Part shown: piece after piece, positions 1,464-22,710 of the stretch | Layout of the letters: every line of letters starts with the position of its first letter | Numbering within the stretch: the first letter of the stretch is position 1 | Source: a virus | IMG/VR virus record: IMGVR_UViG_3300034072_001157 | Coordinates: 1-37,002 of that record | Direction: 5' to 3' (one strand) | DNA length: 37,002 bases | The notes under the pieces: generated by a model | Told to the model about the DNA's origin: nothing | Seen by the model: only the letters and a program-made list of their open reading frames with translations | Database searches by the model: none | Position numbers and translations under genes: made by a program

Positions 1464-1494
1464 GACCCAGTTGAATCAGCCCGAGCGCACCCCG

Positions 1495-6536: not shown

Positions 6537-6799
6537 GTCAGGGGGTGTTCCTCTCTTCGGTGATCGCGGCGGGGATCGAGGCCGCCGGAGGCGGTGTCCG
6601 CGTGGAGGATGGTCACCACCGTCGCGTCGCGGATGACCGCGCGGTGGCCGGAAGGGAGCTTGACGAAAGGGGCGCCGATCTCGGCCGCGAGCTCGAAGGC
6701 CGGGCTGGTGAGGCGGCGGAAGATCTCGTGATCGGACAGATCCGCCACGCGCTCGCGGTAGCAGTCCATCGCGTGGCGGGTGACGATGAGATTATCCAT
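6533..6799 (-). CDS. Conserved phage protein of unknown function, 88 aa
   Basis: From ATG at 6799 it encodes an 88-aa soluble protein starting MDNLIVTRHAMDCYRERVADL. The N-terminal pattern (TRHAMDCYRERV) followed by short beta-prone segments (PFVKLPSGHRAVIRD, TVVTILHAD) recalls small RelE-like or DUF-type phage proteins, but I do not recognise a named family. The start overlaps the end of the repeat-containing gene by 8 bases, and the stop overlaps the ParB start as ATGA. It is therefore probably translated only with its upstream neighbour. Function unknown. Confidence 0.65.
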   Translation of the reverse strand: MDNLIVTRHAMDCYRERVADLSDHEIFRRLTSPAFELAAEIGAPFVKLPSGHRAVIRDATVVTILHADTASGGLDPRRDHRREEHPLT

Positions 6800-7352
6800 A
6801 GGCCTGCCCCGACCCACGGCCGTAGCCGTAGCCGTAGCCGTCGCCGTAGCCGTCGCCGTAGCCGTAGCCGTCGCCGTAGCCGTAGCCGTAGCCGTAGCCG
6901 TCGCCGTAGCCGTAGCCGTCGCCGTAGCCGTAGCCGTAGCCGTAGCCGTCGCCGTCGCCGTCGCCGTAGCCGTAGCCGTCGCCGTCGCCGTAGCCGTCGC
7001 CGTCGCCGTAGCCGTAGCCGTCGCCGTAGCCGTAGCCGTCGCCGTCGCCGTAGCCGTAGCCGTAGCCGTAGCCGTAGCCGTCGCCGTCGCCGTCGCCGTC
7101 GCCGTAGCCGTCGCTCTGGGTGGCACCGTCGCCCGGGAGCGTCTTTGCCGAAACCGCATCCAGGATGTACTGCCGCTCTTCTCGCGGAACCATGGTCAGC
7201 ATCCGGGAAGCGGACTCCGCGGCGGCGATCTGGATCGCGTCCGCAACCTCCCGCAGCCGACGGCCGACGCCACCATTGCAAGCTCCTGCTCGTATGATGT
7301 CATCGGCTGTCAGCAATCCGGGCTCAGGCGGGAGGCTCAGGCCGCCTGCCAT
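6792..7352 (-). CDS. Protein with N-terminal conserved domain and (Tyr/Asp-Gly)49 tail
   Basis: ATG at 7352 gives 186 aa; an in-frame GTG at 7361 is possible. Residues 1-78 look like ordinary phage protein: SLPPEPGLLTADDIIRAGAC, then REVADAIQIAAAESASRML and REERQYILDAVSAKTLP. From about residue 80 the chain is 49 consecutive dipeptides, 29 Tyr-Gly and 20 Asp-Gly in irregular order, ending RGSGQAYG. The array is in frame and uncut by stops, and flanking gene overlaps are intact. The tail should be disordered, acidic and Tyr-rich. Function unknown; similar Tyr/Asp/Ser-Gly tails occur in some phage proteins to my recollection. The other five frames through the array are also open, so the frame choice rests on the N-terminal domain and gene coupling. 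Confidence 0.65.
   Translation of the reverse strand: MAGGLSLPPEPGLLTADDIIRAGACNGGVGRRLREVADAIQIAAAESASRMLTMVPREERQYILDAVSAKTLPGDGATQSDGYGDGDGDGDGYGYGYGYGYGDGDGYGYGDGYGYGDGDGYGDGDGYGYGDGDGDGYGYGYGYGDGYGYGDGYGYGYGYGDGYGYGDGYGDGYGYGYGRGSGQAYG
6819..7112 (-). repeat. 49-copy hexanucleotide tandem repeat GGC(T/G)AC (plus strand GCCGT(A/C))
   Basis: The 294-base array consists of perfect six-base units. On the plus strand every unit is GCCGTA or GCCGTC; only the sixth base varies. On the coding (minus) strand this switches TAC (Tyr) to GAC (Asp) while Gly is always GGC. No other substitution or indel is present, which points to recent expansion by slippage or unequal recombination between two unit types. 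Because the unit is two codons, gain or loss of copies never shifts the frame of the host gene. Confidence 0.97.
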
Positions 7353-9191: not shown

Positions 9192-9751
9192 GATGGTTCT
9201 CCTTCCTTGGGCACGAGGCGCAGCATCGCGCCCGGGGTTTCGTTGTTGGCCGCGTTGAATCGGGCCATGCGCTCGCCGAGGTCGCGCAGTTGCTGACCGA
9301 TCGTCAGATGGGCTGCGGGCGCGACCTGCGGGGGCTGCTTGCGGGCGGCATCGGCGCAGGCCGAGCAGAGGTTCGCCTCGACCCAGCAACAGGTGCTGGC
9401 GCCGAGGCCGGCAGCCGGATCGACCGGCACGCTGCAGGGATCGTGGAAGGTGCAGGCGCAGACGCGGCAGACGCCGTGAACGTTGAGGCCCGGCATGTCG
9501 CGATCGATCGCGATGAGGCGGAAATACACCGCCGGATCGAGTGGCACGAAGTTGCGGATCACGTCGATCCGCTCGGCCGAATGATGGAGGCTGCCATCCT
9601 CGGCCGCGATCAGCGTAAGCTGGAGGCGGTGGAAGTCGCTCGCGGCGCGCCCCGCGCCGAAGCCGGTCAGCGCGAGCAGTTCGCGGGCGAGACCCGCAAT
9701 CGAATAGCCCGCCATGACGCGGCGCTTCTCGAGATAGGTGCCAGGGGCCAT
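9188..9751 (-). CDS. Phage early protein with HTH-like N-terminus and Cys cluster, 187 aa
   Basis: ATG at 9751 is preceded by AAAGGA at a suitable distance. Residues 1-35 (TYLEKRRVMAGYSIAGLARE) resemble the first helices of an Xre-type HTH. The middle contains CRVCACTFHDPC followed by CCWVEANLCSAC, a probable zinc-binding cluster of eight Cys with one His. The C-terminus is helical (LTIGQQLRDLGERMARFN). This mix recalls uncharacterised early proteins of alphaproteobacterial phages; function unknown. It begins the second coupled block of the early operon after a 200-base gap. Confidence 0.6.
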   Translation of the reverse strand: MAPGTYLEKRRVMAGYSIAGLARELLALTGFGAGRAASDFHRLQLTLIAAEDGSLHHSAERIDVIRNFVPLDPAVYFRLIAIDRDMPGLNVHGVCRVCACTFHDPCSVPVDPAAGLGASTCCWVEANLCSACADAARKQPPQVAPAAHLTIGQQLRDLGERMARFNAANNETPGAMLRLVPKEGEPS

Positions 9752-9953
9752 CGGGGTCCTTTCGGGCAGCAGAAAGCCGCTCCGGAAAGCGCGGTGCGCA
9801 AGCCGGTGCGGCAGGGAAATTAGGGAAGGTGGGGGCAGGGAAGGCGGTTAACCGCCGCCCGTTGCGCTGGTGCGGAGGCGACTTCGACCCTGCCCCCGAG
9901 GATGCAGCACGGCTCGGGTCGCGGAAGACCGGCTGCAATTCGGCCGACCGGGA
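9752..9953. promoter_or_regulatory. Gap in early operon with a perfect 14-bp palindrome (9843-9856)
   Basis: These 202 bases separate two coupled blocks of the leftward early operon. GGCGGTTAACCGCC at 9843-9856 is a perfect palindrome and could be a regulator binding site. The leftward Shine-Dalgarno AAAGGA precedes the 9751 start. No convincing gene is seen. An internal promoter is plausible but no consensus boxes can be assigned with confidence. Confidence 0.45.
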
Positions 9954-10421
9954 TCAGGGCGGCTGAGCGGGATCGTCGGAAAGCAGCGGGATGATGTCGC
10001 GCAGCTTCTCGTAGGCCTCGGCGGCCTCGCGGAAAGCATTGCGGCGATCGGCGGCCGTGGCACCGGGGCGCGCGGCAGCGACGATCGCGGCGTGGGCCTC
10101 TCCGCCTTCCTTGATCACGCTCTGCGCATGATCGAGGAGGCGGTGCTGTTCGATGAAGCGCTTGCTGGACGCGAGATCGAGCGCGGCTCCGTAGGCTTCG
10201 AAGAGTGGGGAACCTTCGCCACCGTGTTCGCGGAACGCAAGATCGAGATCGATCGCGGCGGGGAACGGGATCTGCTCGGCCCGGTCGGGATCCATCCAGG
10301 CGCGCACAGTGCTCGGCTGGCGATGAGACACGGCGGCCATGGTTTCCACGCCGCCAGGCAGTTGCACGGCAATGCGCTGCAGCGCCTGCTCGATGGAAAG
10401 CGGGGTCCGCACCTTGGTCAC
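9954..10421 (-). CDS. Probable phage regulatory protein (CII-like position), 155 aa
   Basis: GTG at 10421 overlaps the stop of a 23-codon ORF as GTGA. Residues 8-50 look like a DNA-binding HTH with a proline-bounded recognition helix (IEQALQRIAVQLPGGVETMA, then VSHRQPSTVRAWMDPDR). The rest is helical. The gene lies second after the Cro-like gene in the leftward operon, the place of cII in lambdoid maps. The activity of lambda CII cannot be inferred from sequence alone, and the family is not recognised with certainty. Confidence 0.55.
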   Translation of the reverse strand: MTKVRTPLSIEQALQRIAVQLPGGVETMAAVSHRQPSTVRAWMDPDRAEQIPFPAAIDLDLAFREHGGEGSPLFEAYGAALDLASSKRFIEQHRLLDHAQSVIKEGGEAHAAIVAAARPGATAADRRNAFREAAEAYEKLRDIIPLLSDDPAQPP

Positions 10422-10489
10422 TGGATGCGGCCCTTCCGATTACAGGTGAGGGCTACGGCGGGCCGTGAGAGGATGGCAGTCATGATCAT
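10418..10489 (-). CDS. Candidate micro-ORF, 23 aa, coupled on both sides
   Basis: ATG at 10489 overlaps the stop of the upstream regulator as ATGA, and its TGA overlaps the downstream GTG start as GTGA. The product starts MIMTAILSRPAVALTC and ends NRKGRIQ. The precise interlocking with both neighbours suggests it is translated and passes ribosomes from one regulator gene to the next. It could be a real micropeptide or only a coupling leader. Confidence 0.4.
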   Translation of the reverse strand: MIMTAILSRPAVALTCNRKGRIQ

Positions 10490-10866
10490 GCGGCCATTCC
10501 TTCCAGCGGATTTGCGCCCGGGTTGTCGGGCGCGAGAGGGGTTCCGTCGGCGCCCGAGGGCACGGGGGCTTGTGGTGCGGGCGCCGACGGATGCGCAGTC
10601 GGGACCTGCGCAGTGGGCTGAGAAGCGGGGACGTGCTCCTCGGGAGGATAAATGTCAGGGCGCAGCTCGTGACGGGTCACGCCTGTGGCAGCTTGAATGC
10701 GCTCAATCTCCACCAGCTTTTGAACAGGCACAGCGGCGCGATTTAAGCGCTGCGAGATTGCCTGTCGGGAAACACCGAGCAGCGCAGCCATTTCGGCCTG
10801 ACCTCCCAAGAGGAAGACCGCTCTTTTGAACGCGGCGCGGGCCAAGAGGAGCTGATTCGGGTCCAT
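10486..10866 (-). CDS. YdaS/Cro-like helix-turn-helix regulator, 126 aa
   Basis: First gene of the leftward operon, divergent from the repressor. Residues 10-60 form the HTH: AVFLLGGQAEMAALLGVSRQ and AISQRLNRAAVPVQKLVEIE, close to the YdaS/Cro antitoxin-like family in phage control regions. Residues 70-126 are a Pro/Ala-rich tail without clear fold. It probably plays the Cro role, binding the operator repeats in the adjacent 84-base intergenic region. The ATG at 10866 lacks a strong Shine-Dalgarno, so a leaderless or weak start is possible. Confidence 0.8.
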   Translation of the reverse strand: MDPNQLLLARAAFKRAVFLLGGQAEMAALLGVSRQAISQRLNRAAVPVQKLVEIERIQAATGVTRHELRPDIYPPEEHVPASQPTAQVPTAHPSAPAPQAPVPSGADGTPLAPDNPGANPLEGMAA

Positions 10867-10950
10867 GAATCAGGCTTGTAAAGTGAATGCTTGTGAACGC
10901 AAGTGATTTCGCAAGCGGACGCAAGTGAGTGTTAGTTTAAGGGGAAGCCC
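10867..10950. promoter_or_regulatory. Divergent control region with CGCAAG/CTTG operator-like repeats
   Basis: This 84-base gap lies between the Cro-like and CI-like genes, the expected lysis-lysogeny switch. CGCAAG occurs at 10898-10903, 10910-10915 and 10920-10925. Two of the three copies read CGCAAGTGA. The inverse motif GCTTGTGAA starts at 10889 and GCTTGTAAA at 10873, so CTTGTGAACGCAAG (10890-10903) is a dyad of CTTG/CAAG half-sites. These are good operator candidates for both regulators. Promoter boxes cannot be assigned confidently. Confidence 0.6.
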
Positions 10951-11442
10951 GTGAAGTCGATCGAGGACATTGAGACAGCCGAGGAGGCAGCGCAGTGGCT
11001 CCGCACAGAGCGGCGCCGCCGAGGTTGGACGGCTGAACGGCTGGCAAATCTCATACGCGCGGCGGCAGCGGACGAAGGGGAAAATCTGACCCTGACCCGC
11101 CAGGCCATCTCGCAGCTGGAGACTGGCCGCACCTTGTCGATCCCGCGATGGCTGAAGTACTTCGATGTTGTGCTTCTGAACGACACCGTTGCCCGAGCTC
11201 GCACGGGAGGCGATTTTGGCCAGCGCCAAGAGGCGACGCTTGGCACGCTCCGGGTCTTCGACCTCGACGAGGATGAGGCAAAACTGGTTGAGCGATGGCG
11301 CCTACTCGGGATGGTCGAGCGTCAGGCCATTGTAAAGCTGGTGACGGACCTTAGTAGTGCAGCTTGGTCGAAGGTCGATCATGAGAGGCGACGAAAGCTT
11401 GCGTCGCTCCACGAGAAGTCACCTTCGTACCGACCGAAGTAG
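10951..11442 (+). CDS. CI-like phage repressor without peptidase domain, 163 aa
   Basis: GTG at 10951 with AAGGGG upstream. Residues 12-75 are an Xre-type HTH (AAQWLRTERRRRGWTAERLA, then TLTRQAISQLETGRTLSIPR). The C-terminal part is helical (LDEDEAKLVERWRLLGMVER, QAIVKLVTDL) and probably mediates oligomerisation. There is no S24 peptidase Ser/Lys region, so unlike lambda CI it is not expected to self-cleave after RecA activation. It is divergent from the Cro-like gene, so it is the best candidate for the maintenance repressor. Confidence 0.8.
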   Translation: MKSIEDIETAEEAAQWLRTERRRRGWTAERLANLIRAAAADEGENLTLTRQAISQLETGRTLSIPRWLKYFDVVLLNDTVARARTGGDFGQRQEATLGTLRVFDLDEDEAKLVERWRLLGMVERQAIVKLVTDLSSAAWSKVDHERRRKLASLHEKSPSYRPK

Positions 11443-11466
11443 GCGGTCAAAGAAGGGGGCAATCGA

Positions 11467-11988
11467 ATGGTAGAAGAAGGGTCGCAGCCTAAGAAGCGCA
11501 GTTGGCTAAAGATGGGTTGCCTTGGCATCCTCGGGTTGTTCGCCGCGACTATTGCGCTCGGAGTGGTAATCGAAACGGTGGACCCCGAGGGGGCGAAGAG
11601 GCGTGCTGCCGAAGCAGAGGTGGCCAGAAAGGCGAGTGCTGCCGAGGATGAAGCGGAAGCAAAAGCACTGGCCGCAGCCGAACAGCGCAAAGTCGATGCG
11701 GAACGAGAGGCGGCGGAGGCGAAGCGCCGAAGCGGTTTCCATTGCCTATCCAAATGGGACGGATCGCATCGCGAGCTGGTGAGGTCGCTGAAGGCTTCGC
11801 TTCGGGATCCCGACAGCTTCGAGCACATCGAAACGCGCATCACGCCCGTGGACGATAAGGGGTACCACGTCCTGATGATGAACTACCGTGCTCGCAACGG
11901 CTTTGGCGGGATGAACATTGGACGGCTGGCCGCAAAGGTGAAGGGCAGCGATTGCAGCTTCGAGATCCTGGCCAATGCTGACGAATAG
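11467..11988 (+). CDS. Membrane-anchored coiled-coil protein, probable lysogeny moron
   Basis: A 173-aa protein. Residues 16-36 are one membrane helix (MGCLGILGLFAATIALGVVI), followed by a long Ala/Glu/Lys coiled coil (about 42-95). A C-terminal globular domain follows with ELVRSLKASLRDPDSFEHIE and a CSFEIL end. That C-terminal pattern is widespread in small bacterial exported or membrane proteins; I know no function. Its place directly after the repressor, on the same strand, suits a gene expressed in the lysogen. Base composition is lower in GC than the late genes. Confidence 0.6.
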   Translation: MVEEGSQPKKRSWLKMGCLGILGLFAATIALGVVIETVDPEGAKRRAAEAEVARKASAAEDEAEAKALAAAEQRKVDAEREAAEAKRRSGFHCLSKWDGSHRELVRSLKASLRDPDSFEHIETRITPVDDKGYHVLMMNYRARNGFGGMNIGRLAAKVKGSDCSFEILANADE

Positions 11989-12074
11989 GGAGTTCGGGCG
12001 CTAACCCCCAGCTTTCCAACGATTCCCATCTGCGCTATGTGTGCGGCGGGGCAGGGCGGCTGGAGTTTTCGCGG

Positions 12075-12533
12075 ATGCGGCCGCCTGGTGATGTCGTTGC
12101 TGATCCTGACGCGCTCCGGCTTAAGCCGGAGATGGTCAGTTTCCGCGGGCTCGTGCTGGCCTTTGTTGACTCCTACATCAACACCTGGGGGCAATCGCCG
12201 AGCTACGGCGAGATCGCCGCGGCGACCCGGAGCAACCGCACGCGGGTGAAGCGGGCGGTCGCCAGCCTCGAGCGGGAAGGGCTGCTGCTGCGCCGGAAGG
12301 GCACGCGGGGCCTGTCGCTGCCCGATGCGGTGGAGAAGGCGCGCCGGACGCTCGAGCGGGCAGGCATGCTGCCCAGCGTAACAAATCCGACCCTCTTGCC
12401 GCCGCCGGCGCTCGACTATCCCTCGCCTGCACAGCGCGCAGCAAGGGGACATCGCGACAATGCCGCAGCCGACAATCGATCCGACCGTGGCGCAACAGCG
12501 GTGGGCGCGCCGCCATCGCCACCGCGCGTTTGA
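12075..12533 (+). CDS. Winged-helix (LexA N-terminal-like) regulator
   Basis: The HTH runs FRGLVLAFVDSYINTWGQSP, SYGEIAAATRSNRTRVKRAV, ASLEREGLLLRRKGTRGLSL, which fits LexA/MarR-type winged helices of phage regulators. The tail after about residue 100 is Pro/Ala-rich. The start is uncertain: ATG at 12075 has GGAG nine bases upstream, whereas ATG at 12132 sits directly after a perfect 18-bp palindrome and at the start of the HTH domain. It overlaps the next gene by 74 bases. It probably regulates late or lysogeny genes. Confidence 0.65.
   Translation: MRPPGDVVADPDALRLKPEMVSFRGLVLAFVDSYINTWGQSPSYGEIAAATRSNRTRVKRAVASLEREGLLLRRKGTRGLSLPDAVEKARRTLERAGMLPSVTNPTLLPPPALDYPSPAQRAARGHRDNAAADNRSDRGATAVGAPPSPPRV
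12114..12131. promoter_or_regulatory. Perfect 18-bp palindrome at the winged-helix gene start
   Basis: CTCCGGCTTAAGCCGGAG is fully self-complementary and ends at the base before an in-frame ATG (12132). As DNA it could be an operator for a dimeric regulator, perhaps the product itself. As RNA it would form a hairpin that blocks or positions the downstream start. If translation begins at 12075 it is simply coding, which would make perfect symmetry a coincidence. Confidence 0.5.
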
Positions 12534-13059
12534 AGAGCTCGAGCTGCGCGAGGAAGCGCGGATTGTCGACAGCTGGCGCAAGCACGAAGCGCACGGCACG
12601 GCCGAGACCCTGATCAAGGCCTCGCGCTCATCCAGTGGCACGCTGGCGCGCATGTATTCGGACGGCCACCTGACGATCGACCATATTGCATGGGCGGAGG
12701 AGATCCGGCGTGTGGTCGACTACATCCGCCGCGACGTGGCGATCGGCACGATCAGCTTTGAGACGCGGGTAGACAATGGGTTCACCGGCCACCGGATGGC
12801 CGAGGAAAGCCTTGGCCGGGTGCGGGCGGAGGTCGCCTATTCGCGCTGGCGCCGCCAGCTGCGCGCGCCGGGCCCGGTGCTGGCGATGATCATCGAGGAT
12901 CGCGGCGTCCGCGGCGTGGGCCGGATGTTCCGCATGCGCGATGCCACGGCGCGGACGCTGCTGGTCGATGCGCTCGACGCCTGGCCGGATTGTTATGGCT
13001 GGGCTCGGGACCGGGTGGATGAGAACGATATCCTGGCGGTCCAGAGGAGGCTGAGCTAG
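12460..13059 (+). CDS. Possible late regulator (DUF6456-like / antitermination-type), 199 aa
   Basis: ATG at 12460 has AAGGGG upstream and lies inside the end of the previous gene. The C-terminal part (residues 115-185) has HRMAEESLGRVRAEVA, PGPVLAMIIEDRGVRGVGRM and ATARTLLVDALDAWPDCYG. This architecture resembles DUF6456-type phage proteins and sigma-region-4-like HTHs used in late antitermination regulators. It is followed by a strand change and then the late operon, where a Q-like gene would be expected. Function is inferred from position and weak resemblance. Confidence 0.5.
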   Translation: MPQPTIDPTVAQQRWARRHRHRAFEELELREEARIVDSWRKHEAHGTAETLIKASRSSSGTLARMYSDGHLTIDHIAWAEEIRRVVDYIRRDVAIGTISFETRVDNGFTGHRMAEESLGRVRAEVAYSRWRRQLRAPGPVLAMIIEDRGVRGVGRMFRMRDATARTLLVDALDAWPDCYGWARDRVDENDILAVQRRLS

Positions 13060-13995
13060 TCAGCTTTTGCCTGCATAATCGTCATCGTCGAAAGGCAAAT
13101 CAAGGAATTCGACCCGATTGACCAGCACCTCGAGCACCTCGAGCACAGTGTAGCGTTCCGAAACGAGTTCGTTGTCGAACCCATAGTTGTACTCGATTTG
13201 CAGAATGCATCGCAGCGCATCCCCGGGTCGAACATCCTCTTGGCGGCTTTGAAATCGCCGGAGCCAGACTTGATCCTCTAGCCGCGCCGAGATGTTTCGT
13301 TTGCCGTGCCGTAGTTCCCACTGGCTGTTGCCCAAATAATCTGGCTTCTTGACCGGTAAGATCATCTCAGCGGGCGGCACCGTGATTGACCGTGCAACGG
13401 CCATCGCTTCGATGTCCTCGATGTCCAACTGCACCGTGAGGTCGAATGGGATGTCGCCGTCATGTGAAAGTAGCTTGGCGCTGTCCCCCGGCAACAGGCT
13501 GTCCTTCACGCCCTGAAACCCCTTGATCGCTTCAATCAGCGCGCCCGGCGAGGGTGGCGTGTAATCCGGAAGGTGCCGAACATCCGTTTCTTGCGCGATT
13601 TGCTGTAACTCGCGGCGAAGAGCGGGGAGGCTCCTTGGTGCTGAATCCTCATCGATCCAGCGGATCACCGCGTACTTGGCTCGAACGAGATACTTTCCGA
13701 CCAGCGGCTTCCAATCGAGCGTCTTCAATGCATCGTCTTCGGTGGCCACGAGGGCGTTCCGAAGCCAGGTCTTGATCGAGCCTGTCTCGATATCTTCGAG
13801 GACCAGAATCGTCTCGATGCTTGAATCGATCGACCTGACCAGTTCTCGATCCAGTGCTTCGCACACCTTGATGAAGTCACGGGTGGCCGTGAAAACACGG
13901 GACGCAGGCCCTACGCCCCTTTCGAAATCGATCTCAAAGCCGAAGTCGGCGCGCGGCGCCGCAGGTTCTTTATCGGTTAGCGTTAGCTCTGCCAT
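13060..13995 (-). CDS. Unrecognised 311-aa accessory protein (candidate moron)
   Basis: ATG at 13995 is chosen because GGGAGG lies five bases upstream; an in-frame ATG at 14016 lacks this. The product has a helical, acidic middle (IDSSIETILVLEDIETGSIK, TWLRNALVATEDDALKTLDW, VGKYLVRAKYAVIRWIDED). A beta-rich C-terminal half follows (ILPVKKPDYLGNSQWELRHG, RCILQIEYNYGF). No signal peptide, membrane helix or nuclease motif is seen. It lies opposite to both flanking phage modules, has its own promoter region, and its GC content is visibly lower than the late genes. These are typical moron features. A role in host phenotype or superinfection immunity is possible but untested. Confidence 0.6.
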   Translation of the reverse strand: MAELTLTDKEPAAPRADFGFEIDFERGVGPASRVFTATRDFIKVCEALDRELVRSIDSSIETILVLEDIETGSIKTWLRNALVATEDDALKTLDWKPLVGKYLVRAKYAVIRWIDEDSAPRSLPALRRELQQIAQETDVRHLPDYTPPSPGALIEAIKGFQGVKDSLLPGDSAKLLSHDGDIPFDLTVQLDIEDIEAMAVARSITVPPAEMILPVKKPDYLGNSQWELRHGKRNISARLEDQVWLRRFQSRQEDVRPGDALRCILQIEYNYGFDNELVSERYTVLEVLEVLVNRVEFLDLPFDDDDYAGKS

Positions 13996-14038
13996 GGCGA
14001 CCTCCCAAGCATTCATGCGCTTAATTGAGACTGTATGA

Positions 14039-14110
14039 GGTCACTAGAGCAAACCGGTCACAGTCGTCAGAAATCACACCGTCACAAAATAGACCCTCCC
14101 ATTTGGTCAC
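14039..14110. repeat. GGTCAC direct repeats in the late/moron promoter region
   Basis: GGTCAC occurs at 14039-14044, 14056-14061 and 14105-14110, and CGTCAC at 14080-14085. The copies are spaced by about 17, 24 and 25 bases in a relatively A-rich intergenic stretch between the divergent moron and late operons. Several identical hexamers in 72 bases suggest a protein-binding cluster. No regulator can be assigned. Confidence 0.45.
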
Positions 14111-14164
14111 CAGATCGGGCCAAAACGACCCCGCCACAGGACCGTCCAAAGCGGACCTGATGCC

Positions 14165-14221
14165 CACGAAACCCGCCGAGCGCGCCCATTGTCCCTGGGG
14201 GCTGCGCCGGCGGGTTTCGTG
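14165..14221. promoter_or_regulatory. Inverted repeat with 14-bp perfect stem upstream of late operon
   Basis: CACGAAACCCGCCG (14165-14178) is matched by CGGCGGGTTTCGTG (14208-14221) across a 29-base loop that is itself GC-rich. No T-run follows on either strand, so a simple intrinsic terminator is not supported. It could be an RNA structure in the late leader, for example an antitermination or put-like element, or the remnant of a small mobile sequence. The symmetry is seen; the role is open. Confidence 0.55.
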
Positions 14222-14257
14222 ATTCTGGAGATCACGCCCTTGCCGCTGCCCAAGCAA

Positions 14258-14428
14258 ATGCCCTCGATCGAGCAACTGCTCGACGGGGCGGTCGATGCGC
14301 TTGATGCGCTGATGGCAGATGTGCGCGGCGGTATTCGCGGGCCCGAACACTTCGACCGCCTCGAGGCCGAGGCTACCCGGATCGCGGGATCTTTGCGCGA
14401 CGCCTTTCGCAAGGGGGCGCGCCGATGA
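14258..14428 (+). CDS. Small late-operon leader gene, 56 aa
   Basis: First gene of the rightward late region. From ATG 14258 the product is helical and acidic (MPSIEQLLDGAVDALDALMA, RLEAEATRIAGSLRDAF, ending RKGARR). A TTG at 14240 with GGAG nine bases upstream would add six residues and is a real alternative. It ends in an ATGA overlap with the next gene. No family recognised. Confidence 0.5.
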   Translation: MPSIEQLLDGAVDALDALMADVRGGIRGPEHFDRLEAEATRIAGSLRDAFRKGARR

Positions 14429-14580
14429 TCGATCGCGAGGAGCTTCGGTCTGTGGCGGAACGTGCCGACCACGGTTGCTGTATCGTGAGCCGTGCCTGGC
14501 TGAGGCAGGTGCTAAAGGAACTTGCCCTGCTCGACATGCACCGCGCCGAACGCAAGCGTCGCCGGAGGGAAGTGCGGTGA
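14425..14580 (+). CDS. Small basic phage protein, 51 aa
   Basis: Interlocked on both sides: its ATG overlaps the preceding stop (ATGA) and its stop overlaps the next GTG (GTGA). The product is a helical peptide (MIDREELRSVAERADHGCC, AWLRQVLKELALLDMHRA) ending in an Arg-rich tail. It may bind nucleic acid, but no family is recognised. The coupling to both neighbours is the main evidence that it is real. Confidence 0.6.
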   Translation: MIDREELRSVAERADHGCCIVSRAWLRQVLKELALLDMHRAERKRRRREVR

Positions 14581-14939
14581 CCGCCAGCTTCTACGCCCGC
14601 ACGCCCGCCGCAGCGCCGCGCCAGATACCCACCACGGCCGACCGGGTGCGCGAGGCCGTGCTGGCGCTGTGCGGCGGGCGCTTCAAGATGCTCAGTCATC
14701 TCGAGAGCAGCTGGGGCTCGATCACGTTTTCCGGCACCCGGCACGAGCTGAGGCTGCGGTTCGATGGGATCGAGGACGTCGCGGCGGGCGAGCTGCTGAT
14801 CGAGCGGCTGCCCGATCATGAATTCAGCATCCCCGGCCAGCTGGTCGCCGATGCCACCATCATCAAGGTCGAACACCACTTCGGGCCCATGGAGTGGCTC
14901 GAGGTGACGGCCGTGCTGCTGCTCCTGGAGGAAAATTGA
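14577..14939 (+). CDS. Hypothetical phage protein, 120 aa
   Basis: GTG start at 14577 inside a GTGA overlap. The product begins VTASFYARTPAAAPRQIPTT, has a helical DRVREAVLALCGGRFKMLSH and a beta-rich remainder (SITFSGTRHELRLRFD, ATIIKVEHHFGPMEWLEVTA). It ends in a TGATG overlap with the Gam gene. It is probably co-expressed with Gam, but I recognise no family and assign no function. Confidence 0.6.
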   Translation: MTASFYARTPAAAPRQIPTTADRVREAVLALCGGRFKMLSHLESSWGSITFSGTRHELRLRFDGIEDVAAGELLIERLPDHEFSIPGQLVADATIIKVEHHFGPMEWLEVTAVLLLLEEN

Positions 14940-15466
14940 TGGCCGATACTGCAATCCGCGCACCGCGCAGCCTGACCGAGGCGCAGCGGCTGTGCGAGCA
15001 ATGGGCCGAGCTCGACGGCGAGGTCGCCGCGATCGAGGAGGCGCGCGACGCTGCGATCGCGGCCGCCAATGCTGAGGTGGACAAGGATCTGACGCCACTG
15101 GTGAAGCGGCGCGACGCGATCGTCGCCAAGCTCGAGCCGTGGTGGAAGAGCAATGCGGCCGAGCTGACCAAGGGCAAGCGCAAGTCGGCCGAGCTGGGCG
15201 GCGTGGTGCTGGGTACGCGCACTGGGCGCGCGAAGCTCTCCATCGCCGGCAAGGTCGAGAACGTCGTCGCAATGCTCGCCACGCTGCGATGGGCGAAGCC
15301 GTTCCTGCGGCAGAAAATCGAGCTTGACCGGGTCGCCATCATGCGAGCGCTCGACGGCAAGCACGCTGCCGCGCTGGCCGAGATGGGAATCGCGGCTGAT
15401 GCTGCGGAGGAAAGCTTCTTCATCGAACGCACCGCGCAGGCGGGCACTCAGGGCAAGGTGAGCTGA
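14939..15466 (+). CDS. Mu Gam-like host-nuclease inhibitor protein
   Basis: A 175-aa protein of the Mu Gam family (distant relatives of Ku), which binds double-strand DNA ends and shields linear phage DNA from exonucleases such as RecBCD or AddAB. Motifs visible are a long N-terminal coiled coil (LTEAQRLCEQWAELDGEVAA), a conserved centre (GGVVLGTRTGRAKLSIAG, followed by LRWAKPFLRQ), and a C-terminal helix with the terminal FFIERTAQAG. The length is near that of the family. It is coupled to both neighbours by TGATG. Its place before packaging genes suits protection of replicated or linear DNA. Confidence 0.85.
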   Translation: MADTAIRAPRSLTEAQRLCEQWAELDGEVAAIEEARDAAIAAANAEVDKDLTPLVKRRDAIVAKLEPWWKSNAAELTKGKRKSAELGGVVLGTRTGRAKLSIAGKVENVVAMLATLRWAKPFLRQKIELDRVAIMRALDGKHAAALAEMGIAADAAEESFFIERTAQAGTQGKVS

Positions 15467-15729
15467 TGCGAGGCTACGGAAAATCCATGATGATCGCGGC
15501 GCTGGCCGCTTCGACTTTCGGTGTCGTGGCTGTGGCGCCGTCGAATGTGCCGGTCGCCGAAAGCGGGTACGAGCTCGCCCAGCGCCAGCGCGAGCGGATC
15601 CGCGTGGGCGGCGTGCCCGGTCGCCGCTTCCCATCCAAGGGCAAGCAGGCGCACCCGAAGAAGCGCCGCAACATGAATCACGTGAGCCGGCGCACCCGCC
15701 GTGCTCATCGTCGGAGCCGTGCGGCGTGA
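15466..15729 (+). CDS. Small exported or anchored protein with very basic tail, 87 aa
   Basis: ATG at 15466 shares a base with the Gam stop. Residues 8-26 are hydrophobic (MMIAALAASTFGVVAVA) and may be a signal or anchor. From residue 40 the chain is extremely rich in Arg, Lys and His (PSKGKQAHPKKRRNMNHVSR and RRTRRAHRRSRAA), so it should bind nucleic acid or anionic membrane. No family recognised. The stop overlaps the next GTG. Confidence 0.5.
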   Translation: MRGYGKSMMIAALAASTFGVVAVAPSNVPVAESGYELAQRQRERIRVGGVPGRRFPSKGKQAHPKKRRNMNHVSRRTRRAHRRSRAA

Positions 15730-15953
15730 AGCTGACGCAGCTGCCGACTGCCAATGAACTGGTCTCCGAGCGGCAGCGGTTGCAGGACATGGTTGATGCT
15801 GCCGAGCTTGGCCTCATCGATCTCAAGATCGGTGGCAAGATCCCGGCCGAGAGTGTCGTTGCTGTGACGCGCGCGCCGCTGATCGCGGAATGCCGCGCGC
15901 AGATTGCTGCCATCGATCGGCAGCTGGCCGTGCTCGGCGTCGAGGTGGACTGA
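15726..15953 (+). CDS. Small helical phage protein, 75 aa
   Basis: GTG start at 15726 within a GTGA overlap; the stop shares a base with the HNH gene (TGATG). The product is mostly helix and probably coiled coil (NELVSERQRLQDMVDAAELG, then APLIAECRAQIAAIDRQLAV). No domain recognised. Its only context is the coupled row that leads to the HNH nuclease and terminase. Confidence 0.6.
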   Translation: MKLTQLPTANELVSERQRLQDMVDAAELGLIDLKIGGKIPAESVVAVTRAPLIAECRAQIAAIDRQLAVLGVEVD

Positions 15954-16282
15954 TGGCCGAGCGGCCGCCGGTGTTTCGCCCGCCCGGGTGGAAGCCGCGC
16001 GAGCCGTGGGAGCGTCGCACAACCTATCAAGATAAGCGCATCAGAGGCCGGGCAGGGCAGGCCCGCCGGGCACAGGTGCTGGCCGAGGAACCCTTCTGCA
16101 GGCTGTGCCTGGCGCAGGGCAAGCGGGTCCAGGCTACCGAGGTCGACCACATCAAGGCTTTGGCTGCCGGTGGCAGCGAGGCGCGGTCGAACCGGCAGGC
16201 ACTGTGCAAGCCGTGCCACGAGGCCAAGTCCAAGGCCGAACGGGCCGAGGCGCAGCACGGGGGGGGAGGGTCGATCTCTTAG
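15953..16282 (+). CDS. HNH endonuclease, likely packaging accessory
   Basis: A 109-aa HNH nuclease. The Zn-binding and catalytic residues are all present: C49-x2-C52, D65-H66 in VDHIKALAAGG, N80 and C85-x2-C88-H89 (CKPCHEAK). Small HNH proteins encoded directly before the terminase genes stimulate terminase cleavage of concatemers in HK97-like phages. This one lies 66 bases before terS. The start ATG overlaps the preceding stop. It appears complete and active. Confidence 0.92.
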   Translation: MAERPPVFRPPGWKPREPWERRTTYQDKRIRGRAGQARRAQVLAEEPFCRLCLAQGKRVQATEVDHIKALAAGGSEARSNRQALCKPCHEAKSKAERAEAQHGGGGSIS

Positions 16283-16348
16283 GTCGATCCTTACGGACAC
16301 CGCCGCCCCAGGTAAATTTTCACGCGGACGATTTCAAAGGGTAAAAAC

Positions 16349-16837
16349 ATGCCGCGAGGAGGCTCCCGGCCGGGATCCGGTCGGAAGCGGACCGAGCCGG
16401 CGCTGAAGAGGTTGCGCGGGACGGATCGCGCCGATCGCGACAGTGAGGCGCCGCCGCCGGCGGTGCCGGGCGGCATGCCGCCGCCGTTCCATCTTTCGGA
16501 GCACGCGCAGGGGCTGTTCGGGTCGATCGCGCTGATCCTCGAGCAGCAGGGCCGCGCTTCGCCGCACTACGTCGACGTTGTCGCGCTGCTCGCCATGCGG
16601 CTCGAGCAGATTCGCCGGTACCAGGCGGTGCTCGAGGTCGAGGGCGACACTTACGAGAGCCGGACGCAGCACGGATTCATGATCCGCAAGCGGCCCGAGG
16701 TGCAGATGCTGGGCGATGCCATGCGCCATGCGCACGCGCTGCTCGCCGAATTGATGATCACGCCGGCAACGGCACTGAGGCTCGGCCAGGGCGACAAGCC
16801 CGAGGACAACCCTTTCAAGGCCCTGCTCGAACTCTGA
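16349..16837 (+). CDS. terS: Terminase small subunit (P27 family)
   Basis: A 162-aa protein typical of P27-type small terminases: the basic start PRGGSRPGSGRKRTEPALKR, the Pro-rich LRGTDR...APPPAVPGG segment, then the helical core (FHLSEHAQGLFGSIALILEQ, YVDVVALLAMRLEQIRRYQA). A terminal DNPFKALLEL follows. It recognises phage DNA and feeds the large subunit. ATG at 16349 has AAAGGG upstream. The 66-base gap before it is a reasonable place for a cos or pac site, though none can be read. Confidence 0.9.
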   Translation: MPRGGSRPGSGRKRTEPALKRLRGTDRADRDSEAPPPAVPGGMPPPFHLSEHAQGLFGSIALILEQQGRASPHYVDVVALLAMRLEQIRRYQAVLEVEGDTYESRTQHGFMIRKRPEVQMLGDAMRHAHALLAELMITPATALRLGQGDKPEDNPFKALLEL

Positions 16838-16847
16838 AGGACTTACC

Positions 16848-17054
16848 ATGACCACCAAGGTTACCGTCACCACCCACGACTGGCCCGTAGAGGTGATGGA
16901 GTTCCCGCTCCGCGATCGGTTCCCGGTGGAAGGCGGCGAATGGCGCAAGATCGGGGCGCTCGGCAAGAACATGTCCGGCGAGTTCACCGTCCACTCCGGC
17001 CGCGACTTAATGATCCGCGAGCTGCCAGCTGACTTCGAAGAGAAGCACGCCTAA
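16848..17054 (+). CDS. Small phage protein between terminase subunits, 68 aa
   Basis: ATG at 16848 has GAAGG seven bases upstream. The product is beta-rich (MTTKVTVTTHDWPVEVMEFP, GEFTVHSGRDLMIRELP) and probably a small folded domain. Similar short genes occur between terminase genes in other phages. No family recognised; a role in packaging is possible from position only. Confidence 0.6.
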   Translation: MTTKVTVTTHDWPVEVMEFPLRDRFPVEGGEWRKIGALGKNMSGEFTVHSGRDLMIRELPADFEEKHA

Positions 17055-17060
17055 GGCGAT

Positions 17061-18827
17061 GTGGAGACGAAAAACTACGCGGCGATCGCGGAGCAGTATG
17101 CCCGCGACGTAGTCGGCGGGACAATTCTCGCCTGCAAGACGATCCGGCTGCAGTGCCAGCGCTTCCTCGATGAGCTGACACGACAGGACGACGAGGACTT
17201 CCCTTTCACCTTCGACCCGAAGAAGGTGAAGAAGATCTGCGCCTTCATCGAGTGCCTGCCGCACACGAAGGGTAAATGGGCGGGGCGCAAAGAGACCCTG
17301 ATCCTGCAGCCATGGCAGATCTGGATCTTCGCCTGCGCCTTCGGGTGGCTTCGCAAGGTCGACGGGCTGCGACGCTACCGCGTCCTGTACGTCGTGGTGC
17401 CGCGCAAGAACGGCAAGAGCGTTATCGCCGCCGGCGTCGGGCTCTACATGTTCTGCCTCGACGGCGAGCATGGCGCCGAGGTCTATAGCGGGGCGACCAA
17501 CGAAAAGCAGGCGTGGGAAGTTTTCACGCCGGCGCGGCTGATGGTAAAGCGGACGCAGGCGCTGCGCGACAGCTTCGGCATCGAGCTCACCGCCAAGAAC
17601 ATCATCAGGCCGGCGGACGGGTCGAAGTTCGAGACGATCATCGGGGATCCCGGCGACGGGCAGAGCCCCAGCTGCTCGATCCACGACGAGTACCACGAGC
17701 ACGACGACGACAGCCAGGTCGAGACGATGCAGACCGGCATGGGTGCGCGCGAGCAGCCCATGCAGGTCATCATCACCACGGCCGGCTACAATCTGGCGGG
17801 GCCATGCTACGCCTCGATCCGGGAGGAGCGCGAGAAGCTCACCGGCATCGGGTGCGAGGGCGGGGTGTTCCCGCTCGATCACGAGACCTTCTTCGTCGAG
17901 TACACGATCGACGAGGACGACGACTGGAAGAGCGTCGACGCGCTGCGCAAGGCGAACCCGAATATGGGCGTCTCGGTGCTCGAAGATTACCTCCTCGCGC
18001 GGCAGCGGGATGCGATCCGGACGCCGCGCAAGGCCGGGGCGTTCAAGACCAAGCACCTCGATCTGTGGGTCGCGGCGCGGGCGGCGTACTTCGACATCGA
18101 GGCATGGCGCCGCTGCAAGCGGGACTGGATCCCGCCGACGGGCGACGAGGTACTGGCGCTCGAGCAGCTGCGCGGGCGCCGCGCGATTGCCGCGCTCGAC
18201 CTCGCGTCGAAGATCGACATCGGGGCGCTCGAGCTGCTGATCCTGCCGGAAGGCGAGAAGCCGACGCCGGAGGATCCGGTGATCCGGACGGGCTGGTACT
18301 TCGTGCCAGAGAAGGCGGTCGAGGACCGGCCGTCCTATCAGGGCTGGGACAAGCTGGGGCTGCTGTCGGTCAACCCGGGCGAGATCCTCGATTACGACGA
18401 GATGCTGATCAAGCTGGAGGAGATCAGCAGCTTTCTCCAGCTGGAGCAGGTCCCGTACGACCCGCACCAGGCCAACTACTTCGTCACCACGGCGATGAAG
18501 GCCGGGTACCCGATGATCGAGTACCGCCAGATCGTGCTCAACATGAGCGAGCCGATGAAGACGCTCGATGCGCTGACGCGCTCGGGCGCGATCGCGCACG
18601 GCGGCTGCGCTGTCATGGAATGGCAGCTGAGCAACGTCGTCGCGCAGGTCGACAAGAAGGACAACGTCTACCCGAACAAGCCCGGGCCCGAAGCCAAGAT
18701 CGACAGCGCCGTCGCGCTGATCATGGGGATCGGGACCGCGATGGGCGGATCGGGGGAGGAAGAAGCGCCGCCGTCCCCATGGGACGATCCGAACTACCGG
18801 CTCGTGCCGGACGAAAGCGAGAACTGA
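17061..18827 (+). CDS. terL: Terminase large subunit (ATPase and nuclease)
   Basis: A 588-aa packaging motor of the Terminase_1 family. The ATPase domain has a Walker A-like loop PRKNGKS (residues 114-120) and a Walker B acidic pair D209-E210 in SIHDEYHEH. The C-terminal RNase H-like nuclease shows D380 in AALDLASK and D548 in KIDSAVAL. It hydrolyses ATP to translocate DNA into proheads and cuts concatemers. GTG at 17061 is used; it lies six bases after the preceding stop. The portal ATG follows the stop with no gap. Confidence 0.96.
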   Translation: METKNYAAIAEQYARDVVGGTILACKTIRLQCQRFLDELTRQDDEDFPFTFDPKKVKKICAFIECLPHTKGKWAGRKETLILQPWQIWIFACAFGWLRKVDGLRRYRVLYVVVPRKNGKSVIAAGVGLYMFCLDGEHGAEVYSGATNEKQAWEVFTPARLMVKRTQALRDSFGIELTAKNIIRPADGSKFETIIGDPGDGQSPSCSIHDEYHEHDDDSQVETMQTGMGAREQPMQVIITTAGYNLAGPCYASIREEREKLTGIGCEGGVFPLDHETFFVEYTIDEDDDWKSVDALRKANPNMGVSVLEDYLLARQRDAIRTPRKAGAFKTKHLDLWVAARAAYFDIEAWRRCKRDWIPPTGDEVLALEQLRGRRAIAALDLASKIDIGALELLILPEGEKPTPEDPVIRTGWYFVPEKAVEDRPSYQGWDKLGLLSVNPGEILDYDEMLIKLEEISSFLQLEQVPYDPHQANYFVTTAMKAGYPMIEYRQIVLNMSEPMKTLDALTRSGAIAHGGCAVMEWQLSNVVAQVDKKDNVYPNKPGPEAKIDSAVALIMGIGTAMGGSGEEEAPPSPWDDPNYRLVPDESEN

Positions 18828-20141
18828 ATGGGTTTGTGGAGCTGGATGTTCGGGCAGCCGGGCGACACTGCGCCGCCGTCATATGTGGCGGAGCAGCGGT
18901 CGCTCGAGGATCCGAAGTACAGCGTCTCGGAGAACTCCGAAGAGCTGCTTCGCCTGCTCGGCATCGCGGACAGCATGGGCGCTTTGCCGCTGGTCTCGAT
19001 CGAGGCAGCGCTGTGCGTACCAGCGGTGTTCTCGATCGTCTCGTTCCTGTCGCGCACCCTGGCCGCGCTGCCGCTGCCGACCTTCGAGGCGGGCGAGAAC
19101 GGCGCACGGGTCGAGGACGACACGGCGCAGCTGCTCAGCTATGCGCCGAACGAAGGCGAGACCAGCTTCGGATGGCGCTGCTGGTTCTGGCAGCAGGTGT
19201 TCACGGGCGGCCGCGGGCTTAGCTGGATCGAACGGGCTGGGCGCAAGCCGGTCGGGATCTGGCCGATGGATCCCGGCATGACCACAGTAAAGCGCGTCGG
19301 CGGGCGGAAGGTCTACGTCCACGCCGGGCGTGAGTACCTGCCGGGCGACGTGATCGATCTGCCCTACATGCTGAAGCGGGACGGGCTGGGGAGCTATTCG
19401 CCGATCGGCAAGATCAACAAGGCGATCAGCCTGGCGATCGCGATGGAGAGCTTCGCCGGCGGCTTCTTCCTGGGCGGCGGCGTTCCGCCGCTGGCGCTGG
19501 AAGGTCCGTTGCCGAGCGGGCCGGATGCGTTCAAGCGGGCGCAGGCCGACATCATGAAGGCGATCGACATTGCCCGCCGGTCGAACTCCAACTTCTTCGG
19601 CATGCCCCCGGGCCACAGCCTGAAGCCGGTCGGGATCGATCCGTCGAAGGGGCAGATGGTGGAAGCGCGCGCCTTCCAGATCGTGGAGATCAGCCGCGGG
19701 TGGCAGATGCCGCCGGTGTTTGTGCAGGACCTTTCGAAGGGCACCTTCAGCAACACCGAACAGCAGGATCTGTGGCTCGCCAAGCACCTGGTGATGCAGT
19801 GGGCCAAGGCGTTCGAGGATGAGCTTACGCTGAAGCTCTATGGCTGGCGCAATCCGAACCGGAAGGTCCGGCACAATCTCGACGGATTGCAGCGCGGCGC
19901 ATTCAAGGATCGAAGCGAGGCGCTGGCCCGCGCGATTCAGACCGGCCAGCTCACCCCCAACGAAGCGCGCGCGCTCGAGCAGCGGCCGCCGATGGAAGGC
20001 GGCGATCGCCTCTACGTGCAGCAGGCGACCGTGCCGCTGACCATGGCGGGCTCCACGACCAATCCCACACCCGGCACCAGCGCGGAGCCGGACGACGACG
20101 ATACACAACAGGAGGACGGCGGTGCCGGCACCCAAGACTGA
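18828..20141 (+). CDS. Portal protein (HK97 family)
   Basis: A 437-aa HK97-type portal, the dodecameric ring at the head vertex through which DNA passes. Features are SIEAALCVPAVFSIVSFLSR in the N-terminal helical part, the FLPTF-like turn (LPLPTFEAGE), a clip/stem region around GLGSYSPIGKINKAISLAIA, the wing with RGWQMPPVFVQDLS, and the ending NEARALEQRPPMEGGDRLYV typical of this family. The acidic C-terminal tail overlaps the protease gene by 20 bases. Length is normal. Confidence 0.95.
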   Translation: MGLWSWMFGQPGDTAPPSYVAEQRSLEDPKYSVSENSEELLRLLGIADSMGALPLVSIEAALCVPAVFSIVSFLSRTLAALPLPTFEAGENGARVEDDTAQLLSYAPNEGETSFGWRCWFWQQVFTGGRGLSWIERAGRKPVGIWPMDPGMTTVKRVGGRKVYVHAGREYLPGDVIDLPYMLKRDGLGSYSPIGKINKAISLAIAMESFAGGFFLGGGVPPLALEGPLPSGPDAFKRAQADIMKAIDIARRSNSNFFGMPPGHSLKPVGIDPSKGQMVEARAFQIVEISRGWQMPPVFVQDLSKGTFSNTEQQDLWLAKHLVMQWAKAFEDELTLKLYGWRNPNRKVRHNLDGLQRGAFKDRSEALARAIQTGQLTPNEARALEQRPPMEGGDRLYVQQATVPLTMAGSTTNPTPGTSAEPDDDDTQQEDGGAGTQD

Positions 20142-20724
20142 CGGGCAGGAGCGCCGTGCGCTCAGCGGCGGCGAGCTGCGCATGGTGCAGGGCGAGAATG
20201 GGATCGGGACGGCTGCGGGCTACGCCGTCCTGTGGAACAACCGGACCGATATCGGCGGATGGTGGACCGAGCAATTCGCTCCCGGGTGCTTCACCAAGTC
20301 GCTCGGCGAGCGCGATGTCGTTGCGCTGCACAGCCATGACGATTCCCGCCCGGTCGGCCGGCGCAGTCGCGGCACACTGCGCCTCAACGAGGACGAGCGC
20401 GGCCTCGCCTTCGAGAACGATCTGCCGGACACCAATGACGGCCGGGACCTGAAGGTACAGCTGGAGCGCGGCGATATCGAGGGCATGAGCTTCCGCTTTG
20501 TCGCGCGCCGGCAGGAATGGGACGAGACCGTCGATCCGCCGGTCCGCACCATCCAGGAGGCGGACCTGATCGAGGTCACCTACACCGCGTTCCCCGCCTA
20601 TCCCGACACCGAGGCCGGCATGCGCAGCCTCGAGCAGATCCGCAACGAGCGGCGCCAGCACAACAAGTCGGGCGCGCTGGCGCGCCTCCGCATGAAGCAG
20701 GCGCAGGCCGAGCGGAAGATCTGA
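20122..20724 (+). CDS. HK97-family prohead protease
   Basis: A 200-aa S78-family maturation protease. GTG at 20122 has AGGAGG six bases upstream. The catalytic pattern is visible: VVALHSHDD with His at about 72, and EGMSFRF with Ser123. A C-terminal tail (RQHNKSGALARLRM) is probably removed by self-processing. It cleaves the N-terminal delta domain of the capsid protein during prohead maturation. It lies between portal and capsid, the standard order. Confidence 0.93.
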   Translation: MPAPKTDGQERRALSGGELRMVQGENGIGTAAGYAVLWNNRTDIGGWWTEQFAPGCFTKSLGERDVVALHSHDDSRPVGRRSRGTLRLNEDERGLAFENDLPDTNDGRDLKVQLERGDIEGMSFRFVARRQEWDETVDPPVRTIQEADLIEVTYTAFPAYPDTEAGMRSLEQIRNERRQHNKSGALARLRMKQAQAERKI

Positions 20725-20784
20725 CCAACCCATTACCGGGCGTGAGCCCGAGGCGACGATCCGCGCGCGCGGCGTCCTCAACCA

Positions 20785-20805
20785 CCCGCCTCTGGCGGGT
20801 TTTTT
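20785..20805 (+). terminator. Intrinsic terminator between protease and capsid genes
   Basis: CCCGCC (20785-20790), a 3-base loop, GGCGGG (20794-20799) and a run of six T form a textbook rho-independent terminator. It lies inside the structural operon. It would reduce read-through from upstream into the capsid gene unless late antitermination is active. Confidence 0.8.
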
Positions 20806-20821
20806 GTGACCGGAGCCTGAG

Positions 20822-22102
20822 ATGATTCTCCAGCAGTACTACGAACAGCGCGGCGAGCTCGTCGCCGAAGCCCGCTCGATCCTCGACGGGATCGAGAACG
20901 AGACCGACACCACCCGCATCACCGAGGCCGAGCAGCGTCACGACGCGGTGATGGAGAAGCTGAAGCAGCTGGACACCAAGATCCAGCGCGAAGAGCGCCA
21001 GCTGGCGGCCGAGAAGGCCGAGGAAGAGCGCCGTCGGCTCAACCGCCCGAACGGCCGCGATGGCAGCGCATCGGGCGTCGACACGCCCGGCGAGGGCGAG
21101 CAGCGCTCGGACGAGGAGCTGCAGGCCGAGTACCGTGCCGCCTTCCTCTCGATGATCCAGCATGGCGAAAGTCGCCTGACCCCCGAGCAGCGATCGCTCC
21201 TCAACGCTGGTTACCGCGCGGAAGAGCGCATTCAGCTCGGTGGGACCAACGCCGCCGGCGGCTTCACCGTGCCGCGCGAGCTGCAGAACGAGATCATCAA
21301 GCGCCTGCTCGACTGGGGTCCGATGTATGACCCGACCGTCACCCGCGAGATCGTCACCAGCGGCGGCAATCCGCTCGATTACGTCACCAACGACGACACC
21401 GCCCAGAGCGGCGCGGCGCTGGCGGAAGGTGCCGATCCGTTGAACGATAACAGCGGGGACGTCGTGTTCGGTCAGCGCACCCTTGGTGCGTTCACCTATG
21501 CCACCCCGTGGGTGCAGCTCAGCCTCGAGCTGATCCAGGACTCGGCCTTCAATATGGAAGCCGAGCTGTCGGACCTGCTCGGCGTCCGCCTCGGCCGCCT
21601 CGGCAACCGCTTCCTCACCATCGGCACCGGTACCGGTCAGCCGCAGGGTGTTGTCACCGGCTCGACGCAGGGCCTCATCGCTGCCTCTGCCACCGCGATC
21701 GCGGCGGACGAGCTCATCCAGCTGCAGCACTCGGTCAACGCCGCCTATCGCCGCAGCCCGTTCTGCCGCTGGATGTTTGCCGACACGACCATGTCGGTGA
21801 TCCGCCGCCTGAAGGACGGTCAGGGCAACTACCTCTGGCAGATGGGCGACGTCCGCGTCGGCCAGCCCGACCAGATCCTCGGCAAGCCGTATTCGATCAA
21901 CGATGATGTTCCGGCGATCGCCACCGGCAACCGCACGGTGCTGTTCGGCGACTTCAGCCGCTACGTCGTCCGCAAGGTCGGCGGCCCGCTGGTCCTGACG
22001 GCGCGCGAACGCTTCCTGCCGAAGCTCGGCATCATGGGCCTTATGCGCTTCGACGGGCGTCTGCTGGACGACTTCGCGGTTCGCCACCTGCGCCAGCTCT
22101 GA
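20822..22102 (+). CDS. Major capsid protein (HK97 fold)
   Basis: A 426-aa HK97-type capsid protein. Residues 1-120 are a coiled-coil delta domain (AEQRHDAVMEKLKQLDTKIQ) expected to act as scaffold and be removed by the protease. The mature part carries family motifs: GGTNAAGGFTVPRELQNEII, TYATPWVQLSLELIQDSAFN, LGNRFLTIGTGTGQPQGVVT, FADTTMSVIRRLKD and YLWQMGDVRVGQPDQILG. ATG at 20822 has GGAG upstream. The terminator just before it and the hairpin after it may isolate this high-output gene. Confidence 0.96.
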   Translation: MILQQYYEQRGELVAEARSILDGIENETDTTRITEAEQRHDAVMEKLKQLDTKIQREERQLAAEKAEEERRRLNRPNGRDGSASGVDTPGEGEQRSDEELQAEYRAAFLSMIQHGESRLTPEQRSLLNAGYRAEERIQLGGTNAAGGFTVPRELQNEIIKRLLDWGPMYDPTVTREIVTSGGNPLDYVTNDDTAQSGAALAEGADPLNDNSGDVVFGQRTLGAFTYATPWVQLSLELIQDSAFNMEAELSDLLGVRLGRLGNRFLTIGTGTGQPQGVVTGSTQGLIAASATAIAADELIQLQHSVNAAYRRSPFCRWMFADTTMSVIRRLKDGQGNYLWQMGDVRVGQPDQILGKPYSINDDVPAIATGNRTVLFGDFSRYVVRKVGGPLVLTARERFLPKLGIMGLMRFDGRLLDDFAVRHLRQL

Positions 22103-22114
22103 TCCGGATCGATA

Positions 22115-22140
22115 CCCGGGCGGGGGCAACCTCGCCCGGG
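22115..22140 (+). terminator. GC-rich hairpin after the capsid gene, weak terminator candidate
   Basis: CCCGGGCG (22115-22122) pairs with CGCCCGGG (22133-22140) over a 10-base loop. Only a short CTTT follows, so termination would be partial. The position right after the capsid stop suits attenuation or 3-prime end protection of capsid mRNA. Confidence 0.5.
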
Positions 22141-22191
22141 CTTTCGCTGGCTTGCGCAGCTGATGCGCGGGCCTGCGAAGGAGACCGACCA

Positions 22192-22704: not shown

Positions 22705-22710
22705 GCCAGT

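Follow-up and report, generated by a model that had tools for sequence, protein, structure and literature searches.

Our results show that a gene on the minus strand of the window, positions 13060 to 13995, is mobile cargo (a moron), inserted relative to sister phages; the window, here and below, is the whole stretch of DNA analysed, a viral record 37,002 bases long. The family models that its 311-residue product matches place it in the family of gp29 of mycobacteriophage MichelleMyBell (MMB), of the candidate defence family PDC-S42 and of the NCBIfam family NF053583, although its direct similarity to MMB gp29 is weak. MMB gp29 and gp30 are described as a prophage-encoded anti-phage pair, in which gp29 is the toxic half and the other half is a membrane protein (PMC11856565). 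Because both family models are common to the window protein and MMB gp29, we consider it probable that this prophage cargo, a single-gene member of the family, protects the lysogen against unrelated phages. The candidate immunity factor proposed in an earlier, sequence-only reading of this DNA thus gains a relative with anti-phage activity.

A mobile gene between regulators and late genes

The reading frame stops at 13060 and can be opened at ATG 14016, which gives the longest version (318 aa), or at ATG 13995 (311 aa). The second is the better candidate for the gene start, since a Shine-Dalgarno sequence, GGGAGGT (14000 to 14006, minus strand), lies just upstream of it and the homologues L030, L002 and L031 start at the same residue. 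In the alignment the whole reading frame is kept in homologues down to 17–28% identity, which rules out a chance ORF, and the gene is confirmed as real. Its GC content (56.8%) and its GC3 are both the lowest among the 36 called genes that exceed 300 bp, for which GC has a mean of 65.8% and a standard deviation of 3.1; the window as a whole has 65.2%. The length, strong Shine-Dalgarno, low GC and flank-unlike composition described from the sequence alone were therefore all recovered. The promoter region attributed to the gene in that description stands in part: 84 bp of inserted sequence precede ATG 13995, but no sigma-70-like site was found in this upstream inserted segment, a negative that carries little weight for a phage of a probable alphaproteobacterium. 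From the orientation of the gene and its own upstream segment, we assume that it is expressed in the lysogen.

The gene runs against the rightward genes on both sides. To its left lie a CII-like regulator (9954–10421), a weak repressor match (10951–11442) and a ParB-like protein, and to its right late genes, among them those for a Mu Gam-like protein and the large terminase, in agreement with the opposite-strand site between regulators and late operon noted earlier. Its immediate neighbours, at 12460–13059 and 14219–14428 (both plus strand), are phage genes that are kept in the sister phages and lie outside the moron. The proximity of the CII-like gene and of the weak repressor match could suggest that the protein regulates the choice between lysis and lysogeny, a role that has been proposed for lambda RexA. 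This we consider very unlikely, as members of the family also occur outside phages and at different places in related phages, and RexA is not among the structural matches listed for the window protein.

The inserted segment (13054–14079, about 1,026 bp) was delimited by alignment with the sister contig L048. The five sister contigs (L048–L052) have the same left and right genes in the same order and nothing similar between them, so that the site is empty in all five. L048 has a terminase 97% identical to that of the window; in this contig, positions 6529–6582 and 6648–6797, only 65 bp apart, align with 13000–13053 and 14080–14228 of the window, the latter stretch with 94.7% identity. A sixth relative (L002) carries a 77%-identical copy in the opposite orientation, about 2.2 kb away and to the left of the conserved gene, and another copy, 79% identical, lies in a phage (L030) that, over the stretch available, has no match to any of the other window genes compared. 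The empty site in five phages and the other placements in these two point to repeated transfer of the gene between phages; the suspicion that it is a moron was well founded.

Other parts of the window drew our attention. The intergenic stretch before the late genes (14080–14235) shares 94.7% identity with L048 and can be recognised in each of the five sister phages. It holds a hairpin of very high stability (CACGAAACCCGCCG...CGGCGGGTTTCGTG, z −5.8), and may be an element for late regulation or one related to packaging. An ORF on the minus strand at 6792–7202 consists almost wholly of Gly-Asp and Gly-Tyr repeats, encoded by GGCGAC/GGCTAC hexamers. At the left end (3–1821, minus strand) the ORFs resemble, by eye, IS66-type transposase genes, and this end of the window may therefore be host DNA or an insertion.

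Family membership and distribution

The sequence-only reading recognised no domain in the protein and called it a candidate for a new factor. The first statement holds for Pfam, where the window protein has no match and its homologues only scattered weak ones, and a sequence search of the PDB returned nothing useful for the window protein, but it does not hold for NCBIfam and PADLOC. The NCBIfam model NF053583 (LAPAL_fam, ‘LAPAL motif-containing putative phage structural protein’, curated cut-off 60 bits) matches the window protein with 96.7 bits over residues 40–297 of the 318-aa reading, and all 17 homologue records pass the cut-off. PDC-S42 (PDLC05015) of PADLOC matches it weakly (1e-7) and only along the C-terminal 81 residues, and is matched by every one of the 29 aligned sequences, that is, the window protein and 28 homologues. 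MMB gp29 is recognised by the same models, with 181 bits for NF053583 (residues 17–295) and 1.6e-16 for PDC-S42. A literal LAPAL motif is missing from both proteins, which nevertheless exceed the NF053583 cut-off. With a relative already described, the window protein is not entirely new.

The direct link to MMB gp29 is more distant. In a profile-profile alignment of the window branch with the MMB group only the C-terminal OB domain aligned (E 1.3e-5, probability 81%), and the same D-x6-W...D spacing recurs in the OB domain of the MMB group. A profile of the window branch alone did not find MMB gp29, and the addition of bridging sequences to this profile raised the scores of intermediate members but not that of MMB gp29. 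A second route would be structural and independent: the third BFVD match of the window model (E 5.6e-6) is a 184-aa protein of mycobacteriophage Pipsqueaks, which we equated by organism and length, rather than by accession, with gene 31, the only annotated 184-aa CDS of this phage. The sequence of Pipsqueaks gene 31 recurs with 100% identity in the C-terminal portion of MMB gp29 (annotated as 310 aa), so this model-based match may lead to the same protein. For the N-terminal domain, the putative link to MMB gp29 rests on the family model. The phages Squirty and Flathead (L067 and L069) combine the C-terminal portion of MMB gp29 with different N-terminal parts, and the OB domain may therefore be exchanged as a module.

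Homologues are sparse. We found them at 25 genome loci, in Pseudomonadota, Bacteroidota, Ignavibacteriota, Chloroflexota, Verrucomicrobiota and Bacillota, and Acidobacteriota contribute one short homologue fragment. The NF053583 cut-off was exceeded in 4 of 289 genomes of the class of Afipia and in 2 of 245 of Clostridia. No DNA-level homologue of the gene was found in E. coli; among plasmids, the window protein found no homologue and a Shewanella protein one distant match. Phage and bacterial copies interleave on the tree, where the well-supported branches force at least 4 changes, which shows that this sparse family moves between phages and bacteria. The copy of Vibrio anguillarum lies within 15 attC-like repeats, with an integrase gene beside the IF-3, L35 and L20 genes; this array is the chromosomal superintegron, and the family member is one of its cassette genes. 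The record that holds it (L004) is filed as Vibrio phage Va_90-11-286_p16, yet its positions 9700–23086 are host DNA, including the genes for threonyl-tRNA synthetase, IF-3, L35 and L20, the integrase and about 13 kb of superintegron cassette array.

The earlier reading proposed to look for copies outside prophages near defence genes. Chromosomal copies do exist, and among 130 genes neighbouring them 72 PADLOC families were matched, a count that has no matched control. By Pfam many of the neighbours are ordinary genes, and several homologues have ordinary surroundings; we therefore make no claim of defence-island enrichment. One homologue (L009, 7371–9497) is found between pieces of a type IIG restriction enzyme that cover model positions 3–157 and 955–1136, the middle being missing.

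Small accessory phage genes often serve counter-defence or host takeover, and an early lytic OB-fold protein could shield phage DNA or block restriction, recombination or CRISPR. The predicted OB-fold and the homologue inside a restriction gene would suit such a role for the window protein. We regard it as unlikely, since many members of the family are chromosomal or integron-borne, with no phage to protect, and since the relative whose role is known, MMB gp29, is a defence protein. The possibility that the gene encodes a phage structural protein comes from the name of NF053583. Against it, the family spans genomes of six or more phyla, has chromosomal genes and an integron cassette gene among its members, and includes MMB gp29; the gene lies outside the late operon and on the opposite strand, and is missing in the five sister phages, which keep the flanking genes and the terminase. 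A structural role is thus extremely improbable, and for this gene the label ‘structural’ is in all likelihood an error. The earlier reading had named in advance, as a finding that would count against an immunity role, a clear structural-protein match; such a match was obtained in name only, through this label.

Predicted structure of the window protein

The AlphaFold model of the window protein (pLDDT 87.9, pTM 0.73) predicts two domains, an N-terminal alpha/beta domain (residues 15–200; 13396–13953, minus strand) and a C-terminal OB-fold (residues 203–295; 13111–13389, minus strand), followed by a low-confidence tail (residues 296–311; 13063–13110, minus strand). For the N-terminal domain the best structural alignments are weak, with Z about 5, to an amidohydrolase domain and to ferredoxin-like folds; modelled alone (pLDDT 85.9) and submitted to a structure search, this domain has no clear relative (best Z 5.5). 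In the predicted OB-fold, residues D219, W226 and D259 do not vary across the 29 aligned sequences. Its best match is the mitochondrial SSB Rim1 (Z 8.5, rmsd 2.4 over 80 residues), ahead of RPA, HIN-200 and tRNA-synthetase OB-folds, although for an OB-fold Z values of this size may reflect just a common arrangement. The whole model has no match in the PDB by fold under E 0.001, and the lysyl-tRNA synthetase and SSB entries returned by that search reflect the OB-fold. The top BFVD match of the model (E 9e-9) is a phage protein annotated as DUF6575. The DUF6575 Pfam model matches no aligned member of the window family. As a sequence family DUF6575 was set aside, being rare in the three classes sampled and having in L058 a clear member that by eye is unlike the window protein; we keep DUF6575 as a structural lead only.

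With mitochondrial SSB, RPA and other OB-folds as its best C-domain matches, and with several homologues ending in a peptide that resembles clamp-binding sequences, the protein might be taken for an SSB-like accessory of phage replication or recombination. We consider this quite unlikely: the gene is missing in sister phages, one of which has the 97%-identical terminase, and lies on the opposite strand with foreign composition; moreover, the OB-fold is common to many unrelated proteins, and the PDB gave no match by sequence.

Possible mode of action and comparison with known systems

How might the protein exclude other phages? Under the reading we prefer, in which the window gene is a stand-alone exclusion gene of the MMB gp29 family, a ligand, either a nucleic acid or a nucleotide, would appear during the replication of another phage and be bound by the OB domain; this binding would free a toxic action of the N-terminal domain that halts either the infected cell or the synthesis of phage DNA. 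In the mycobacteriophage and the gamma/Bacteroidales branches, the product of an overlapping gene, a small membrane protein, would be its partner, as effector or as brake. Such genes are present in Vibrio, Shewanella, Marinobacterium, Aeromonas and one Bacteroidales, where the overlapping downstream gene encodes 137–144 aa with 3–4 predicted membrane helices; the neighbour protein of the mycobacterial and Gordonia phages has 67–68 aa and 2 predicted membrane helices, and other multi-helix neighbours are found in Verrucomicrobia (L018) and Afipia (L013). Membrane genes of this kind make up 5% of the called genes of 60–300 aa in the loci. A different gene (L014, 8925–9719), 7 bp downstream of a homologue and with a single HEPN-type RDEVAH motif, is a possible alternative partner. 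In the window no multi-TM ORF adjoins the gene on its strand, and neither a gp30-like nor a RexB-like neighbour was found; we therefore file the gene as encoding a gp29-family protein only, and not as an MMB gp29-gp30 system. The protein of the window branch would then work by itself, which Butters gp30, an unrelated protein, is also able to do.

The sequence Qxx[LM]F has the shape of the bacterial sliding-clamp-binding peptide. Its strict form is present in the last 22 residues of 6 of 37 family members versus 4 of 443 other locus proteins, with 0.1 expected from shuffled tails and a count of six that is somewhat inflated by kinship of the sequences. Examples are QTDLF in L006, QGSLF in L009 and QQELF in L032. 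The tail of the window protein, FLDLPF, is at best a degenerate version, and MMB gp29 is without the peptide. This clamp-binding-like tail of several relatives is a lead, from which a bolder proposal can be drawn: a widespread family of immune OB-fold proteins, in phages, integrons and at least six bacterial phyla, tethered to the sliding clamp by a Qxx[LM]F-like peptide, which watch or poison the replication of invading phages, with varying membrane or HEPN-like partners and with the window protein as a stand-alone form. We put this forward tentatively, as a rather doubtful extension.

If the defence reading is true, MMB gp29, the candidate PDC-S42 and NF053583, labels that are unconnected in the sources read, would be one family. 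What had been an actinophage curiosity would become an immune family of wide distribution, for which a fold is predicted, conserved residues are available for mutation and a site of action can be tested, and a misleading NCBIfam name would be corrected.

Several known systems resemble the window protein in part. RexAB-like exclusion systems (lambda, Sbash, CarolAnn and Butters) are likewise prophage cargo, and some branches of the window family similarly pair a soluble protein with a small protein of 2–4 membrane helices; however, there is no sequence link and the window has no membrane partner. The structure of lambda RexA is not described as an OB-fold, its nearest relative being RdgC (PMC11077077), and a RexA reading, which the soluble-plus-membrane layout had prompted, is unsupported; RexA is not among the structural matches listed. 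A DUF6575 anti-phage protein was reported from an E. coli screen (PMC9519451); the likeness lies in the DUF6575-annotated phage protein that tops the BFVD matches, and the difference in the Pfam model, matched by no aligned family member. With OB-fold single-stranded DNA-binding proteins the window protein has the predicted OB-fold of residues 203–295 in common. From PDC-S42, a computational candidate family, it differs in that only its C-terminal 81 residues match. It exceeds the curated cut-off of NF053583 over nearly its whole length, unlike that family's name in its lack of a literal LAPAL motif and in the misfit of the word ‘structural’. MMB gp29-gp30 differs in its great distance from the window protein, in its gp30 membrane partner and in its host group; but gp29, with 310 aa versus 311 here, has a near-full-length NF053583 match and a PDC-S42 match as the window protein does, aligns with it in the OB-domain profiles and, similarly, is encoded in a cargo position of a temperate phage.
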